Source: Christiangramia lutea (lineage in GTDB: Bacteria > Bacteroidota > Bacteroidia > Flavobacteriales > Flavobacteriaceae). From it: a DNA stretch of 64,000 bases. A program made the position numbers and the translations under genes. The stretch is from assembly GCF_022489035.1 (NCBI RefSeq), contig NZ_JAKVTV010000001.1, positions 558,001 to 622,000 of the forward strand, in the 5' to 3' direction. The notes beneath the pieces were generated by a model that worked only from the letters and a program-made list of their open reading frames with translations, did no database searches and was not told the DNA's origin. Positions 21,811 through 37,254 of this stretch are shown here, piece after piece (positions within the stretch are counted from its first letter, which is position 1; each line of letters begins with the position of its first letter).

Positions 21811-21868
21811 CGTCATGCTGAACTTGTTTCAGCATCTCAAAATACCCAGAACCACGTTCAGGGTGACG
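21811..21868. repeat. Palindromic repeat cluster 2 (forward plus reverse unit)
   Basis: Forward unit CGTCATGCTGAAC ... CAGCATCTCAA (21811-21840), then reverse unit TACCCAGAAC ... GTTCAGGGTGACG (21843-21868). A degenerate type-C sequence (GAGCACAGGTAAGGAATACC) follows at about 21935-21955. These lie between the YciI and GT2 genes. Confidence 0.8.
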
Positions 21869-26690: not shown

Positions 26691-27308
26691 ATGGAATTAC
26701 TTTTTATAGGACTGGCCGTGGGGGCCGTTATCGCTTACTTTATTTTCGCTGGCTTTCACAAAGGCCGCAATCAAATGAAGACCAACGAACAATCGGTAGT
26801 CCTGATGGATAAGATAAAAAGTGTTTGCAAGTTTATTACCGTGGAAGGTGATTTTTCGGAGATCTATCATTACGAGAATTTAAAGGAAAAATACCTGAGT
26901 CTTATCCTTGGAAAGAAAAAAGCAATTGTTCTGGTTACTGCCAAGGCCCATGTTGGATTCGACCTTAGCAAGATTCAGATGCAAAGCGATAATGAGGAAA
27001 AAAAGATCATCCTCACCAATTTTCCGCAGCCGGAATTGTTAACTATTGAAACAGATTTTAAATATTACGACAAACGCGAAGGATGGGCGAACCCTTTTAC
27101 CACTTCAGATCTTACCGATATTAACCGTGATGCGAAGAAAGCTATCGTAGATAAAATTCCGCAAAGCGGATTGCTGGACAAAGCAAGATCTGAAGCCCTG
27201 GAAACTATTTTATTAATGGAAAAGATCGTGGAAACCATCGGCTGGAAACTGGATTATACGGCATTGACGATTGAAGATACCGAAAATAAGAAGATCGAAA
27301 ATCAATAG
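26691..27308 (+). CDS. DUF4230 protein with N-terminal membrane anchor
   Basis: A 205-residue protein: an N-terminal TM (about 2-20, FIGLAVGAVIAYFIFAGF), then a soluble domain with alternating strands (VCKFITVEGDFSEIYHYEN; KKAIVLVTAKAHVGFDLSKI near 78) and a C-terminal helical part (KARSEALETILLMEKIVETIGW). This matches DUF4230, often membrane-anchored in Bacteroidota. Function is unknown. It is the last gene of the cyclase-DUF4260 cluster. Its stop codon ends at the first base of a repeat unit. Confidence 0.85.
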   Translation: MELLFIGLAVGAVIAYFIFAGFHKGRNQMKTNEQSVVLMDKIKSVCKFITVEGDFSEIYHYENLKEKYLSLILGKKKAIVLVTAKAHVGFDLSKIQMQSDNEEKKIILTNFPQPELLTIETDFKYYDKREGWANPFTTSDLTDINRDAKKAIVDKIPQSGLLDKARSEALETILLMEKIVETIGWKLDYTALTIEDTENKKIENQ

Positions 27309-27333
27309 ATGCTGAAACGAGTTCAGCATGACG
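27308..27333. repeat. Palindromic repeat unit 4 (reverse type)
   Basis: GATGCTGAAAC and GTTCAGCATGACG form a 10-bp stem around a short loop, beginning at the last base of the DUF4230 stop codon. It is an isolated reverse unit. Confidence 0.75.
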
Positions 27334-27453
27334 GTGTTCAATAGTTCTATCATGAACCCAACGTTGCCCTGAACATTTTTATGCTAATATCAAGGCTCTA
27401 AAAAAAATAGGGCTCACATAAAGTAATTTAAAAAAGTTAATCGTTAATAATTA

Positions 27454-27480
27454 CGTCACCCTGAACTTGTTTCAGGGTCT
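27454..27480 (+). repeat. Palindromic repeat unit 5 (forward), upstream of GIY-YIG gene 1
   Basis: GTCACCCTGAAC ... TTCAGGGTCT, a perfect stem CCCTGAA/TTCAGGG with a short loop. It ends 13 bases before the ATG of the GIY-YIG gene. Confidence 0.8.
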
Positions 27481-27493
27481 TTAGTTTATTAAA

Positions 27494-27777
27494 ATGAAGG
27501 AAGGTTACACCTATATTTTGGCTAATAAGAACAGAACAGTCTTTTATATTGGTGTAACTTCTGATTTGAAGACCAGACTAATTCAGCACAAAAGAGGTGA
27601 AGGATCAATTTTCACCAGAAAATACAATATTAACGATCTGCTATATTTTGAAGAATTTACCAATATAAGTCAAGCGATTTCAAGAGAAAAGCAATTAAAA
27701 ATTGGCATAAAGACTGGAAGTTGAACTTGATTAGAACTAAAAATACAGAATTGAAAGATTTGTTTTCCGAACTTTGA
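27494..27777 (+). pseudogene. GIY-YIG endonuclease, frameshifted copy
   Basis: The ATG at 27494 opens a GIY-YIG domain (YTYILANKNRTVFYIGVTSD at 5-24; RLIQHKRGEG; LLYFEEF; REKQLK). About residue 70 the reading frame fails. The intact frame would need one more A in the A-run near 27696-27700 to give KNWHKDWKLNLI and end at TGA 27775-27777. Without this the frame stops at 27724 after 76 residues, losing the family's conserved C-terminal segment. About two thirds of residues match the intact copy at 30128. It lies between a forward and a reverse palindrome. Confidence 0.85.
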
Positions 27778-27803
27778 GATGCTGAAACAAGTTCATCATG
27801 ACG
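27778..27803 (-). repeat. Palindromic repeat unit 6 (reverse), downstream of GIY-YIG gene 1
   Basis: GATGCTGAAAC ... GTTCATCATGACG, starting at the base after the restored GIY-YIG stop codon. One arm base is changed (CATC for CAGC), breaking a pair. Confidence 0.75.
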
Positions 27804-27833
27804 GTATTTGATGATTTTTGTAATATAAGGTTG

Positions 27834-27882
27834 CATCACCCTGAACTTGTTTAACTTCGTTGAATCTACAATTTTAGGGTCT
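27834..27882 (+). repeat. Palindromic repeat unit 7 (forward, enlarged loop)
   Basis: CATCACCCTGAAC and TTTTAGGGTCT enclose the longer loop sequence TTGTTTAACTTCGTTGAATC. The same extra loop occurs in clusters 1 and 3. It ends 11 bases before the YjbR gene. Confidence 0.75.
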
Positions 27883-27893
27883 AAAAATAAATA

Positions 27894-28253
27894 ATGAACA
27901 TCGACACATTCAGAGATTATTGCCTTGCGAAAAAAGGTGTAAGCGAAGGCCTTCCATTTGGTCCGGATAATCTTGTGCTTAAGGTGATGGGAAAGATTTT
28001 TTCGATTATTTCCCTGGATGAAGTGCCGCTTAGAGCCAATTTGAAATGTGATCCTGAAAGAGCTATTGAGTTACGTGAAGAATTTGAGGACAATATTCTG
28101 CCAGGCTATCACATGAACAAACAGCACTGGAACACTTTGATTCTAGACGGAAGGTTAGATCCAAAACTCGTTTTTGAACTGATCGATCATTCTTACGATC
28201 TGGTGGTAGACGGACTTACCAAAAAATTGAAAAAGGAACTTGAAGATTTATAA
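27894..28253 (+). CDS. MmcQ/YjbR-family DNA-binding protein
   Basis: A 119-residue protein of the MmcQ/YjbR family (double-wing DNA-binding-like fold). The N-terminal DTFRDYCLAKKGVSEGLPFG, the central KVMGKIFSIISLDEVP and the NLKCDPERAIELREEF and PGYHMNKQHWNTLIL segments are the family blocks. The role is poorly known; DNA binding is assumed from the fold. Its stop shares a base with the ATG of the MutS-like gene (TAATG), so the two are probably translated together. Confidence 0.92.
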   Translation: MNIDTFRDYCLAKKGVSEGLPFGPDNLVLKVMGKIFSIISLDEVPLRANLKCDPERAIELREEFEDNILPGYHMNKQHWNTLILDGRLDPKLVFELIDHSYDLVVDGLTKKLKKELEDL

Positions 28254-30031
28254 TGACAGAAGCTGAAGATTTTTACTCCTCGCGAAAGGCGAAATATTCT
28301 CAACAAAAAAAACAGATCACCAAAAAGCTCGCTTTCTCAAGTACGCTTAGACTTATCGTCTTTTTAGGAATATGCGCGGCTGTATATTTTTTCTTCGGAA
28401 ATATCAACATCCTGCTTCCTCTGGGCATTGGGCTCATCGCCCTGTTTATCTTTCTTATTTCCCGGCATACTGATCTCAAGAAGGAAAAAGAAAAACTGAA
28501 AGCTCTAATCAAGATCAATGAATTGGAATTACACATTCTCAAAACCAGAGATTTTTCTGATCTACCAGATGGAAAGAAATTCGATCCCGAAGATCATGAA
28601 TACTCCAGGGATATTGATCTTTTTGGCAAAAAATCCTTTTTTCAGTTCCTCAACCGAACGGCTTTAAAAGAAGGGAAAGCACGGCTTGCAAAGATACTTC
28701 TGGCAAATAAAACGGTCGATATTCTTAAAAAACAAGAAGCAGTTAAAGAACTTTCTTCAAAAGCCGACTGGAGACAGAATTATTCAGCCACCGCCACCCT
28801 AGTAAAAACCGAAACCGATTCCAGGTTCATCCTTAACTGGATCAGAAACTATAAGAGTTTCATTCCAAAATATATTAAATGGCTTCCTGCGGTTTTTTCT
28901 ATTTTATCAATAGGCGTTCTTGTCATTTTTTACCTCGGTATCATTGGTAGCTTCCAAGTATTATTATGGTTTTTGATCGGGGTCATGATCACTGGGGTTT
29001 TCCTGAAAAAGACCAATGATCTGTCAGCTACGGTGAGTAAGGTACAGGACACATTTCAACAATATCATCAACTGCTTGATTTCTTGGAAACTGAAAATTT
29101 TGACTCGGAATTGATGAGGGAAGTGAAAGAATCTATCACCTCCGAATCTAAAAAAGCCTCTGTTATTCTAAAAGAATTTTCCCGGGCTATAGATGCCCTG
29201 GACCAACGAAATAATTTTCTGTTTGGAGTAATCGCTAATGGTTTTTTCCTTTGGGATCTTAGACAATGTTACCGATTGGAAAAATGGATTCAACATCATC
29301 ATACCGCTGTAGAACACTGGTTTGAAGCGGTGGAAAGAACCGACGCTTATAACAGCCTGGGGAATTTTGCATTTAATCACCAGCATTATACCTATCCGGA
29401 GATCCTTCCTGAAGGACATGGCATAATTGCAAAGAACCTGGGGCATCCACTCCTAGAACCCTCCAAAAGAGTAAATAATGATTTTAAAATCGATGGAGAA
29501 CAGTTCTTTATAATCACCGGCGCCAACATGGCTGGAAAAAGCACATTTTTAAGAACGGTTGCGCTTCAAATCGTAATGTCCAATATTGGTCTTCCGGTTT
29601 GTGCGGAGCGTTGTGAATATTCTCCGATTAAACTCATCACCAGTATGCGTACCAGTGATTCCCTGGGAGACGATGAATCATATTTCTTTTCAGAATTAAA
29701 AAGGCTGAAATTCATCGTAGATAAGATCCAGACCGAGAATTATTTCATCATCCTGGATGAGATCCTGAAAGGAACCAACAGCACAGATAAGGCCAGGGGT
29801 TCCCGAAAGTTCGTACAGCGACTTGTAGGCACCAATTCTACCGGAATCATTGCCACGCACGATCTTAGTTTATGCAAAATAAGCGAGGAACTTAAACAGG
29901 TAAAGAATTATTATTTTGATGCTGAAATAGTAAATGATGAACTTCATTTCGATTATCATTTAAAAGATGGTATTTGCCAGAATATGAATGCTTCATTTTT
30001 ACTTAGAAAGATGAAGATTGTGGAAGAATAA
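28253..30031 (+). CDS. Membrane-anchored MutS-like ATPase
   Basis: A 592-residue protein with the MutS ATPase domain at its C terminus. Walker A is GANMAGKST near 423, the ABC signature region TSDSLGDDESYFFSELKRL near 463, Walker B YFIILDEILKGTNS near 497, and the switch His is in IIATHDL near 537. It lacks the mismatch-recognition domain. Two TM pairs are visible (about 30-70 and 208-250), so the protein sits in the membrane, unlike classical MutS. The helical lever part lies between the second TM pair and the ATPase. Function is not known. It follows the YjbR gene with an overlapping stop and start. Confidence 0.88.
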   Translation: MTEAEDFYSSRKAKYSQQKKQITKKLAFSSTLRLIVFLGICAAVYFFFGNINILLPLGIGLIALFIFLISRHTDLKKEKEKLKALIKINELELHILKTRDFSDLPDGKKFDPEDHEYSRDIDLFGKKSFFQFLNRTALKEGKARLAKILLANKTVDILKKQEAVKELSSKADWRQNYSATATLVKTETDSRFILNWIRNYKSFIPKYIKWLPAVFSILSIGVLVIFYLGIIGSFQVLLWFLIGVMITGVFLKKTNDLSATVSKVQDTFQQYHQLLDFLETENFDSELMREVKESITSESKKASVILKEFSRAIDALDQRNNFLFGVIANGFFLWDLRQCYRLEKWIQHHHTAVEHWFEAVERTDAYNSLGNFAFNHQHYTYPEILPEGHGIIAKNLGHPLLEPSKRVNNDFKIDGEQFFIITGANMAGKSTFLRTVALQIVMSNIGLPVCAERCEYSPIKLITSMRTSDSLGDDESYFFSELKRLKFIVDKIQTENYFIILDEILKGTNSTDKARGSRKFVQRLVGTNSTGIIATHDLSLCKISEELKQVKNYYFDAEIVNDELHFDYHLKDGICQNMNASFLLRKMKIVEE

Positions 30032-30055
30032 GATGCTGAACTCGTTTCAGCATGA
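30032..30055. repeat. Palindromic repeat unit 8
   Basis: GATGCTGAAC ... GTTTCAGCATGA, a stem of ATGCTGAA/TTCAGCAT with the loop in forward order but reverse-type flanks. It starts directly after the MutS-like gene's stop codon. Confidence 0.7.
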
Positions 30056-30094
30056 AGGAAGGCCCAAAAATCCATAACCCAATTACCAAAAAAT

Positions 30095-30121
30095 CGTCAC
30101 CCTGAACTTGATTCGGGGTCC
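30095..30121 (+). repeat. Palindromic repeat unit 9 (forward), upstream of GIY-YIG gene 2
   Basis: GTCACCCTGAAC ... ATTCGGGGTCC; one arm base differs (CGGGG for CAGGG). It ends 6 bases before the GIY-YIG ATG, so the start region lies against the hairpin. Confidence 0.78.
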
Positions 30122-30127
30122 TTACTT

Positions 30128-30409
30128 ATGAAAAAAAGTTATATCTATATCCTATCAAATAAGAATAGAACAGTTTTATACATAGGTATGACTAATGATT
30201 TAATTAAAAGAATTACTGAACACAAAAATGGAATAAGTTCTGATTTCACTAGAAAATATGACCTTGAAGACTTGCTTTACTTTGAAGAATTTTCTGATAT
30301 CAATCAGGCTATCTACAGGGAAAAACAATTGAAAAACTGGCGTAAAGACTGGAAATGGAACTTAATCAAAGATTTAAATCCAGAACTAAAAGATCTGTTT
30401 CTAGAATGA
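30128..30409 (+). CDS. GIY-YIG family endonuclease, intact copy
   Basis: A 93-residue stand-alone GIY-YIG nuclease domain (UvrC N-terminal-like). The first strand is YIYILSNKNRTVLYIGMTND (residues 5-24), giving the Y-x-Y-I-L and Y-I-G parts of the motif. Later come the basic helix IKRITEHK (Arg near 28), LLYFEEF near 51, and REKQLKNWRKDWKWNLI near 63-79, whose Glu is the likely metal ligand. The protein ends ELKDLFLE. Such small proteins (UPF0213/YhbQ-like) are common in Bacteroidota; cellular substrates are not established. It is closely bracketed by palindromes. Confidence 0.92.
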   Translation: MKKSYIYILSNKNRTVLYIGMTNDLIKRITEHKNGISSDFTRKYDLEDLLYFEEFSDINQAIYREKQLKNWRKDWKWNLIKDLNPELKDLFLE

Positions 30410-30412
30410 TGA

Positions 30413-30438
30413 GATGCTGAAACGAGTTCAACATGACG
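30413..30438 (-). repeat. Palindromic repeat unit 10 (reverse), downstream of GIY-YIG gene 2
   Basis: GATGCTGAAAC ... GTTCAACATGACG, 3 bases after the GIY-YIG stop. One arm base (AACAT for AGCAT) breaks a pair, as in unit 6. Confidence 0.75.
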
Positions 30439-30462
30439 TGGTTTCGATTAATTATTTTTTTT

Positions 30463-30571
30463 TCATCCTGAATATGTTTCAGGGTCTATTCAGGAGGTAA
30501 AACTCTAGAATTCTCTGGACAGCATAAAGCTGTTTCAAATTGACGCCACCCTGAAATTAATTCAGGGTCTC
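30463..30571. repeat. Palindromic repeat units 11 and 12 (forward)
   Basis: Unit 11 at 30463-30487 (TCATCCTGAA ... TTTCAGGGTCT) and unit 12 at 30542-30571 (GCCACCCTGAA ... TTCAGGGTCTC) lie before the YdjM-like gene, with 54 bases of plain sequence between them. Confidence 0.75.
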
Positions 30572-30595
30572 AAGTAAAACCTATATTTGCCAATT

Positions 30596-31600
30596 ATGGA
30601 TTCATTAACCCAGATAGTATTAGGAGCAGCCGTTGGCGAAGCCGTACTTGGTAAGAAAGTAGGTAATAAGGCAATGCTTTATGGAGCAATTGCCGGTACC
30701 ATTCCAGATCTTGACACATTTGTCGGCAATTTTTTCGATACCATTACGGCTATCGAGATTCATCGCGGCTTTTCACATTCCATCGTATTTGCAGTACTTT
30801 TCGCTCCTGTTTTTGGCTGGATCATTTCAAAGATCGAATCAAATTCCTCGGCTACCTGGAAAAACTGGTCCTGGCTTATGTTCTGGGGATTGTTCACCCA
30901 TCCCTTGCTCGACGCCCACACTACCTGGGGAACTCAATTATTCTGGCCTTTAGACCTACGATTGGCCTATAAGAATATTTTTGTGATAGATCCGCTCTAC
31001 ACTTTGCCATTTTTGGTTTTTCTTATCATGTCGATGCGATTGAAAAGGTCTAATCCAAAACGAAGAAAATATAACCGTTTAGGACTTATCATTAGCAGTG
31101 TCTATTTACTAATGGTCACTCCGGCTCTAAAATTCTATACTTTTCAGAAATTTGAAAATGCTCTGGAAAATCAGAATATTTCCTACGAACGAATGGACAC
31201 GAGGCCGACTCCGCTGAATTCCATCCTTTGGACGGCCAATATTGAAACTGAAGATGCCTTCCTAATTGGTAACTATTCAATTTTCGACTCACAGCCAATT
31301 GAATATTACTCTGTGCCGAAGAATTATTCTCTGGCCAAGCCAATAGAAAATGATCCTAATCTTGAAAGGTTGAAGAAAATCAGTGAAGGCTGGTACACAT
31401 TCTCAGAAAATAATGGAGACTTGTATTTTAACGATCTTAGATTCGGGACTATGGATATTGAAGATCCTGATTCCGAATTTATATTCAGCTACAAATTAAC
31501 CAAGGAGCACGGTGAATTGACCGCTACCGAAACTGAAAAGGAAATGACCGATGCCAAAAACCTTCTACCGAGACTTTGGGCGCGCATCCTGGGTAATTAA
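30596..31600 (+). CDS. YdjM-like inner-membrane metal-dependent hydrolase
   Basis: The ATG at 30596 gives 334 residues (MDSLTQIVLGAAVGEAVLGK). A TTG three codons upstream is less likely. The N-terminal half has the YdjM/LexA-binding membrane hydrolase pattern: GAIAGTIPDLDTFVG near 31, EIHRGFSHSIVFA near 57 and a following THPLLDAHTTWGTQL near 100, supplying His and Asp ligands between about five TM helices. The C-terminal half (about 200-334) is a soluble domain. Some family members are SOS-regulated, but no LexA box is visible here. Function is unknown. Confidence 0.85.
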   Translation: MDSLTQIVLGAAVGEAVLGKKVGNKAMLYGAIAGTIPDLDTFVGNFFDTITAIEIHRGFSHSIVFAVLFAPVFGWIISKIESNSSATWKNWSWLMFWGLFTHPLLDAHTTWGTQLFWPLDLRLAYKNIFVIDPLYTLPFLVFLIMSMRLKRSNPKRRKYNRLGLIISSVYLLMVTPALKFYTFQKFENALENQNISYERMDTRPTPLNSILWTANIETEDAFLIGNYSIFDSQPIEYYSVPKNYSLAKPIENDPNLERLKKISEGWYTFSENNGDLYFNDLRFGTMDIEDPDSEFIFSYKLTKEHGELTATETEKEMTDAKNLLPRLWARILGN

Positions 31601-31610
31601 TTATTAAAAA

Positions 31611-31673
31611 CGTCATTCTGAACTTGTTTCAGAATCTCCAATTTTGAGACCCTGAACTGAATTCAGGGTGACG
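31611..31673. repeat. Palindromic repeat cluster 13 (forward plus reverse unit)
   Basis: Forward CGTCATTCTGAAC ... TTCAGAATCTCC (31611-31639) and reverse GAGACCCTGAAC ... TTCAGGGTGACG (31646-31673). The forward stem carries TT/AA in place of TG/CA, a paired change. Confidence 0.8.
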
Positions 31674-34607: not shown

Positions 34608-34872
34608 GATCCTGAATCAAGTTCAGGATGACCTGCTAAAATGATCTAGCGCGTCAAGCTGAACTTGTTTCAGCTTCTCATCTTTAGACCCTGAAATAAA
34701 TTCAGGGTGACGTTTATGGCCATAAATTCATTTCGAAGAAGTGAAACGACTGAGAAATCTCTCGATCAATAGATTTCTCCCTACGGTCGAAATGACAAAA
34801 GATTCTGAATCAAGTTCAGGATTTATAAAAATTAACTTTCAAGTCGTCAAGCTGAACTTTTTTCAGCTTTTC
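34608..34872. repeat. Palindromic repeat cluster 15
   Basis: The gap between VF530 and the M49 gene (34604-34935) is almost all repeats. Reverse GATCCTGAAT ... TTCAGGATGACC (34608-34633). Forward CGTCAAGCTGAAC ... CAGCTTCTC (34651-34679). Reverse AGACCCTGAAA ... TTCAGGGTGACG (34686-34712). A type-C inverted pair TCATTTCGAAG ... GAGAAATCT (34728-34760) with AGATTTCTCCC ... TCGAAATGA (34771-34795). Reverse (34801-34824) and forward (34846-34872). A terminator follows. Confidence 0.82.
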
Positions 34873-37095: not shown

Positions 37096-37254
37096 TGTCA
37101 TTTCGAAGGCGCGAAGCAACTTAGAAATCTAATTCTTCCAAGAGATTTCTCCCTGCAGTCGAAATGACTTTTTACTCTAATATTATTTTTTTCGTCAAGC
37201 TGAACTTGGTTCATCTTCTCCACTTAAAGACCCTGAAATGAAATCAGGGTGACG
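37096..37254. repeat. Palindromic repeat cluster 16
   Basis: Type-C inverted pair: TGTCATTTCGAAG ... TTAGAAATCT (37096-37130) and AGATTTCTCCC ... GTCGAAATGAC (37143-37168). Forward CGTCAAGCTGAAC ... CATCTTCTC (37193-37220). Reverse AAGACCCTGAAA ... ATCAGGGTGACG (37227-37254). This is the last cluster found in the window. Confidence 0.8.

Follow-up and report, generated by a model that had tools for sequence, protein, structure and literature searches.

Introduction

CGTC repetitive extragenic palindromic (REP) sequences form a superfamily of short hairpins that, in the sections of the published description drawn on here, carry an unpaired CGTC or TGTC tag at one end, an 8–9 bp stem with an A-T first pair, a loop of 4–5 nucleotides (nt) and a three-base tail that is mostly CCA, and that form dimers of opposite orientation in which head-to-head (HH) pairs predominate and tail-to-tail (TT) pairs are rare (PMC3733652). 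The same sections report these repeats from Bacteroidetes, with G. forsetii among the CGTC-positive species, equate the CGTC-1 repeats of Neisseria with dRS3, and note, as of 2013, the apparent absence of a transposase dedicated to CGTC repeats (PMC3733652). Here we analyze a 64,000-nucleotide stretch of the Christiangramia lutea genome (contig NZ_JAKVTV010000001.1, positions 558,001 to 622,000; hereafter the window), in which two small genes of the GIY-YIG nuclease superfamily, copies A and B, each lie between two 25-base GTCA-tagged hairpins. We propose that each unit probably consists of a small GIY-YIG nuclease gene together with its own cognate CGTC REP hairpins at both ends.

The hairpins of the window share with the CGTC REP superfamily, as characterized in those sections, the CGTC/TGTC tag, an 8-bp stem with an A-T first pair, a 5-nt loop, a three-base tail and dimers of opposite orientation. 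They differ in the tail, which is mostly TCA here and mostly CCA in the paper, and in having a small GIY-YIG partner, whereas the paper regards the repeats as apparently devoid of a transposase of their own (PMC3733652). A second point of comparison is provided by the RAYT/REPIN systems, which, in the features considered here, are alike in that a nuclease gene is flanked by REPs and gene-free dimers occur elsewhere, but which use a tyrosine (HUH/Y1) transposase instead of a GIY-YIG enzyme and a GTAG tag instead of CGTC. In its workings the present system resembles REP/RAYT, yet it falls outside RAYT, since no tyrosine transposase domain is found by Pfam. An earlier sequence-only reading of the window had drawn the analogy with REP palindromes and had suggested that the GIY-YIG protein might move or copy the hairpins; of this, the analogy itself is sustained in that the hairpins fit the CGTC REP class, the GIY-YIG gene is matched to them by lineage, and gene-free heterodimers share the end kinds of the gene units.

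The closest likeness may be to Ssn/NTS of Neisseria, reported in Nature Communications in 2025, in which small GIY-YIG nucleases are reported to cleave single-stranded DNA at sites carried by repeats and to play a role in transformation. Common to Ssn and to the present genes is a small GIY-YIG protein whose cognate repeats are spread through the genome; the hairpin sequence differs, and the emphasis here is on mixed-end gene units and mixed gene-free dimers. If Ssn is as reported, the genes described here would represent a Bacteroidota branch of the same kind, to which unit ends, heterodimers and lineage matching are added. A literature search of titles and abstract openings returned no paper coupling GIY-YIG with REP-type palindromes; in view of the Neisseria system, the earlier remark that no description of such a pairing was known may nevertheless not hold.

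Architecture of the two gene units

Copy B (positions 30128..30409, + strand) encodes an intact small nuclease of 93 amino acids. Copy A (27494..27724, +) is a 76-codon open reading frame (ORF) that ends at 27724 because the frame shifts within a run of A near 27703, with homology running on in another frame to about 27777; it may be either a frameshifted gene copy or a sequencing error. Both match the Pfam GIY-YIG domain (PF01541), copy B at 2.1e-17 and copy A at 8.5e-15, with scores of 63.6 and 55.3 bits against a cut-off of 22.6, and the Pfam domains found were GIY-YIG, a weak T5orf172 and nothing else; the profile makes the fold plain. Residues Y7, Y18, G20, R28, H32 and E65 are conserved at 0.99–1.00 among 113 homologues, and we take these conserved motif residues to be catalytic. 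Among solved structures only six sequences were matched at E <= 1, the best being UPF0213 and UvrC chains (E 0.007–0.047), with the remaining matches probably due to chance; defence and phage libraries gave weak partial matches only.

Each copy is bracketed by a forward 25-base hairpin upstream and a reverse 25-base hairpin downstream, with the GTCA tags directed away from the gene. The hairpins lie at 27455..27479 (+) and 27778..27802 (−) for copy A, and at 30096..30120 (+) and 30413..30437 (−) for copy B; in both units the 5′ hairpin contributes a C-type end and the 3′ hairpin a G-type end. When folded as single-stranded DNA, three of the four, among them the one 5′ of copy A, assume an 8-bp stem and a 5-nt loop, and the one 3′ of copy A has one stem mismatch (folding z-scores −4.4, −2.3, −1.8 and −1.8 for the four). 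The genome of C. lutea contains six small GIY-YIG genes, and this hairpin is present at two of them.

This architecture bears out the layout given in the sequence-only reading, with both copies between outward-tagged hairpins, and its estimate that the proteins are about two thirds identical (65% over 71 residues). Other details need correction: the hairpin-to-ATG distance, given as 6–13 bases, measures 14 for copy A and 7 for copy B; a downstream hairpin 0–3 bases past the stop is right for copy B (3 bases), and for copy A (0 bases) only if the stop is taken as 27775-27777 in another frame; and the two nuclease genes are one intact gene and one frameshifted, not two intact.

The hairpin repeat and its dimers

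The window contains 26 hairpins at up to two substitutions, compared with 0–7 in 20 order-1 Markov random sequences, and 25 of the 26 fall within 21.4–37.3 kb. Over the whole genome the pattern is matched 58 + 55 times, and the reversed pattern 0 + 0 times. In a set of 177 distinct repeats, selected by a pattern that holds GTCA (at most one substitution), so that only the base before GTC and the outer boundary are independent of the selection, the base preceding GTC is C in 0.69 and T in 0.25, and conservation drops to background one base outside the tag. The tail on the inner side is mostly TCA (T 0.85, C 0.65, A 0.61). Among 280 repeats, two variable stem pairs are of Watson-Crick type at frequencies of 0.91 and 0.90, where base composition would predict 0.44 and 0.35, and these paired changes indicate that the hairpin itself is maintained; the stem-pair counts, like the dimer counts below, ignore relatedness.

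Gene-free tags-out dimers are found in the window at 31612..31672, 21812..21867, 34653..34711 and 37194..37253, with 11, 6, 9 and 10 bp between the hairpins, respectively; for the first of these, the predicted fold consists of separate hairpins, with the paired tags closing the structure. The pieces of the C. lutea genome examined hold 17 tags-out pairs, 14 of them with 5–11 bases between the hairpins, and 7 tags-in pairs; no head-to-tail pairs within 60 bases were present in these pieces. A gene-centred sample gave 41 tags-out and 35 tags-in dimers, to be set beside the predominance of HH over TT in the portions of the published description used here on the assumption that H denotes the tag end.

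In both orientations the two partners are almost always of different kinds. Typed tags-out dimers are mixed (C-type + G-type) in 26 cases and alike in 2 (13 of the 41 were untyped and left out), and typed tags-in dimers are mixed in 26 and alike in 1 (8 of 35 left out), where chance would make about half of the typed dimers mixed. Gene units with typed 25-base T repeats on both sides (n = 11) have mixed ends in 9 cases and like ends in 2. Gene-free heterodimers and gene units are thus made from the same two end kinds. A mixed C-type/G-type pair cannot make one perfect long palindrome, and we infer that the mixed pairing matters for recognition.

Recurrence beside homologues

Homologues of copy B are present at E <= 1e-8 in 86 of 149 genomes of the family. 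The flanks of 115 loci were compared, consisting of 30 loci and 80 further ones, mostly in list order, among the matches listed, together with five from the C. lutea genome; the 80 were taken without some loci near contig ends, some extra copies and the tail of the list. Copies A and B are each represented once; 114 loci have full 150-base flanks and 113 entered the protein-flank correlation described below. Inverted similarity of the flanks was dropped as the sole test, because direct similarity is equally common, and an oriented-tag test was used instead.

GTC-tagged perfect stems of at least 6 point outward on both sides at 25 of 114 GIY-YIG genes, compared with none of 252 neighbouring genes and none of 570 random flanks, and inward on both sides at 2 of 114. 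When all 64 trinucleotides were scanned as the tag (stem at least 7), TCA (26) and GTC (25), which are one base apart, stood out from the next, with 3. Judged by eye, many of the remaining loci sit among hairpins with shorter stems that the strict test misses. The hairpins themselves differ by lineage, as in TTCCTGCG..GCAGGAAT, TTCCGCACTTGATGCGGAAT and TGCGCACTTGTTGCGCA. Inspection by eye of further copies in the C. lutea genome places L001 and L002 between other GTCA hairpins, L004 within a GTCA hairpin array with no clear outward orientation, and L006 next to a different palindrome. Long direct repeats surround many gene copies.

The layout recurs in other phyla. A second sample comprised the best 80 of 489 relatives, mostly from Rhizobium and its relatives, of which 78 had full flanks (4 of the 78 gave ORFs of 5 to 75 codons only and were retained). 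At stems of at least 7, 25 of 78 loci have outward hairpins and 4 inward ones, compared with 1 and 0 of 374 neighbours; GTC, TCA and CAT are the only tags standing out, and a CCA tail is common in the Rhizobium-related repeats. Outward palindromes beside homologues, proposed earlier as a check, are thus in excess over other genes in both samples. In a plasmid collection, 33 records held a match; 17 of these were examined by one script, in addition to one Neisseria record. CGTC or TGTC repeats point outward on both sides in 9 of the 17, some of which share a locus, and these nine come from Rhizobium, Neorhizobium, Shinella, Sphingobium, Azospirillum and Novosphingobium. Homologues in metagenome bins labelled Bacteroidetes and UBP14 likewise have hairpins at their flanks, as has, on one side, a homologue in a bin labelled Parcubacteria, and a Neisseria gonorrhoeae homologue, 36% identical to copy B, sits among CGTCATTCCCGCG..GCGGGAATC CGTC hairpins.

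Matching of hairpin to protein lineage

Across genomes, similarity between proteins and similarity between their flanks are rank-correlated at 0.315 (113 loci). When flanks were permuted among paralogues of the same genome in 1000 rounds, the correlation averaged 0.120 (standard deviation 0.024, maximum 0.206); the observed value lies above all within-genome permutations and the match is therefore not just shared genome ancestry. Likewise, the flanks of the nearest foreign homologue are more similar than the mean of the other paralogues in that genome in 70 cases, less similar in 10 and equal in 2.

The presence of repeats follows the presence of the gene, and within gene-positive genomes it follows the clade of the gene. 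T repeats are present in 52 of the 86 genomes with the gene and in 9 of the 63 without it, and the mean number of repeats per genome is 8.2 with a match (n = 86) and 0.43 without (n = 63; range 0 to 8). Among gene-positive genomes, T repeats are present in 21 of 23 with clade T and 31 of 63 without (p 4e-4), and C repeats in 9 of 9 with clade C and 31 of 77 without (p 6e-4). The cross pairings of clade and repeat give p 1.0 and 0.31 in the same genomes when at least one repeat is counted, and p 0.10 and 0.07, weaker than the cognate pairings, when at least five are. The clade thresholds (T, E <= 1e-28; C, E <= 1e-46) were set after the lists had been inspected, and these genome-level association tests ignore relatedness.

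The repeats are also concentrated around the gene. On contig C1 of C. lutea, 15 of 60 listed repeat places lie within 8 kb of the gene, where 0.69 are expected, and in the genus genome G022 the figures are 15 of 100 listed places (of 110 in all) and 0.51. In both cases the densest 16-kb stretch of repeats among the listed places is the gene's own locus; further clusters without the gene exist.

History within the genus

The genomes searched comprise one per species, 24 in the genus. Counterparts of copy B adjoin a MutS-like gene in G003, G005, G013, G016 and G022, and copy A is matched at the equivalent site in G001 and G016, with fragments in G012 and G002. The ratio of nonsynonymous to synonymous substitutions (dN/dS) is 0.04–0.15 in 13 of 14 computable pairs and 0.25 in the closest pair; these figures are rough because dS is mostly saturated, being >1 in those 13 pairs and not computable in 14 of 28. 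The positions shared across species and the conserved protein imply that both positions are old and that the gene is mostly inherited in place. At the MutS-like gene in G013 (L048), site B holds a tandem pair of gene units, a duplication of the whole unit including its hairpins, and the second gene has an internal stop.

Eight of the 24 genomes, holding 47 to 124 repeats each, carry a close homologue (E < 1e-35) of A or B; the reversed-pattern control gave 0 or 1 per genome across the genus. One clean filled/empty pair was found, in which G022 differs from G017 by a 364-bp segment with the gene (global alignment, 0.696 identity over 18,466 columns). Gain and loss are indistinguishable at this site because the direct repeat bounding the segment permits recombinational loss equally well. 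A clean insertion of a tags-out dimer, with its empty site, was sought in 19 syntenic stretches of the genus and none was seen, which we think reflects too high a divergence.

Proposed mechanism and alternatives

The evidence for a cognate pairing of protein and hairpin is strong, and it very probably means that the GIY-YIG protein recognizes its own hairpin. Cleavage of the hairpin in single-stranded form is likely, by analogy; we commit to it because of the nuclease superfamily, the conserved motif residues and the reported activity of the Ssn family. The protein would recognize the CGTC-tagged hairpin in single-stranded form and cut it site-specifically, as is reported for Ssn of Neisseria. 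The consequence would be a slow spread in trans of short hairpin heterodimers, densest near the gene, with the gene itself mostly staying in place. The comparisons also support the GIY-YIG gene as the lineage-matched partner of the CGTC-tagged hairpins. That the system actually mobilizes the repeats is a more tentative step, on which we incline slightly to doubt.

A number of observations weigh against the proposed units of gene and cognate hairpins. Both gene positions are old and shared in the genus, which counts against simple gene hopping; no target-site duplication was seen in the 19 syntenic stretches; and the direct repeat on either side of the 364-bp segment of G022 includes a whole hairpin. 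Repeats are numerous in G006 (153), G004 (116), G017 (91) and G011 (50), which have no close homologue of the subfamily, and G014, with 44 repeats, lacks any small GIY-YIG gene (best E 0.133). The expectation that palindromes should not abound where the gene is missing is thus upheld by the 63 gene-negative genomes of the family but not, inside the genus, by G014 or, for this subfamily, by G006 and G004; relics of a lost gene would explain the repeats in genomes without it. Relaxing the stem to at least 5 weakens the orientation bias (40 of 114 loci outward and 17 inward; neighbours, 1 and 0 of 252), and with one mismatch allowed a tagged hairpin is found on at least one side at only 53 of 115 loci and on both sides at 34. 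Direct similarity of the flanks is as frequent as inverted similarity (56 and 53 of 115, score at least 30). Over all 149 genomes, with at least five repeats, the cross pairings also reach p 0.002 each (cognate, 9e-11 and 7e-7), because the clades share genomes. Outside the family, 8 of the 17 plasmid-collection records are without the two-sided outward layout, including those of Sinorhizobium, Planktothrix, Photobacterium and Spirosoma, and the nearest hairpin on each side of the Neisseria homologue points inward.

The alternative that survives best is a nuclease for DNA uptake or genome maintenance, for which the repeats would be cut sites; it would have no part in moving them, and their spread would be due to recombination or to another enzyme. 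We regard this as possible although doubtful as a full account, and it overlaps with our explanation in the cognate-cutting step. The reported role of Ssn/NTS in Neisseria transformation, the stable gene positions and the conserved protein speak for it, and the direct repeats at many copies, together with the filled/empty junction, fit recombination. Taken alone, however, it leaves unexplained why gene-free dimers and gene units share mixed ends, why repeats are dense at the gene and why they are scarce in gene-free genomes. The same activity could serve both ends: cutting hairpins in incoming single-stranded DNA would modulate DNA uptake, and we slightly favour the spread of heterodimers in trans over such a role, with which it is compatible.

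Hairpins could instead be hot spots of recombination or insertion between which small nuclease genes are carried fortuitously, the protein not recognizing the repeat. The long direct repeats at many copies and a filled/empty pair bounded by a direct repeat would suit such passengers, but we find the idea improbable, as it does not account for the near absence of the outward layout from neighbour genes (0 of 252 and 1 of 374), for lineage matching that survives permutation within genomes, or for cross pairings that are not significant inside gene-positive genomes. Least probable of all is that the hairpins are terminators or attenuators insulating a small gene: four of the five terminator-like sites in 27300-30600 are indeed these hairpins (shuffles, mean 2.2, standard deviation 1.4), but about 113 copies in the genome stand against six small GIY-YIG genes, of which just two have this hairpin, and terminators are not characterized by lineage-matched sequence, a fixed CGTC tag or mixed dimers.

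Returning to the gene with cognate hairpins, a broader and still more tentative proposal would be that small GIY-YIG nucleases are the missing mobilizers of the CGTC REP superfamily in several phyla, constituting a second REP class free of tyrosine transposases, in which a single-strand hairpin nuclease copies C-type/G-type heterodimers and each lineage has its own hairpin. A lineage-matched nuclease beside the repeats bears directly on the question of the CGTC REP partner. It would also point to a role for small genes annotated just as 'GIY-YIG nuclease family protein' or 'excinuclease ABC subunit C', and the family might prove a source of many sequence-specific single-strand nucleases, each with a target legible in the sequence beside its gene.

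Further features of the loci

Additional hairpins surround both units of the window. To the left of unit A, the tag of a hairpin at 27308..27332 (−) faces that of the 27455-27479 hairpin, and to the right lies a degenerate hairpin at 27835..27858 (+) with 2 substitutions. Unit B has a hairpin on its left at 30032..30056 (−) and two on its right, at 30462..30486 (+) and 30545..30569 (+), each with 1 substitution.

Spacing of dimers differs between genomes: in G004, the listed places on several contigs repeatedly show tags-in dimers separated by about 22 bases, whereas the C. lutea genome favours tags-out dimers with 5–11 bases. The small GIY-YIG gene of L006 (G000:C23:6997-10197; about 1474-1812 and 1838-2235) adjoins a tmRNA gene identified by ARAGORN and is flanked by 92-base direct repeats, 98% identical, that hold the different palindrome. 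In plasmid p1 of Planktothrix agardhii (L174), a small GIY-YIG gene lies between the gene for a type IIL restriction enzyme (MmeI) and DISARM drmA. Two of the plasmid-labelled records, NZ_AP026896.1 (4.9 Mb) and NZ_CP119140.1 (2.2 Mb), are of chromosome size and are probably mislabelled chromosomes. A dense local array is seen at G125:C1:1187338-1193549, where four GIY-YIG matches fall within about 6 kb among the matches listed.

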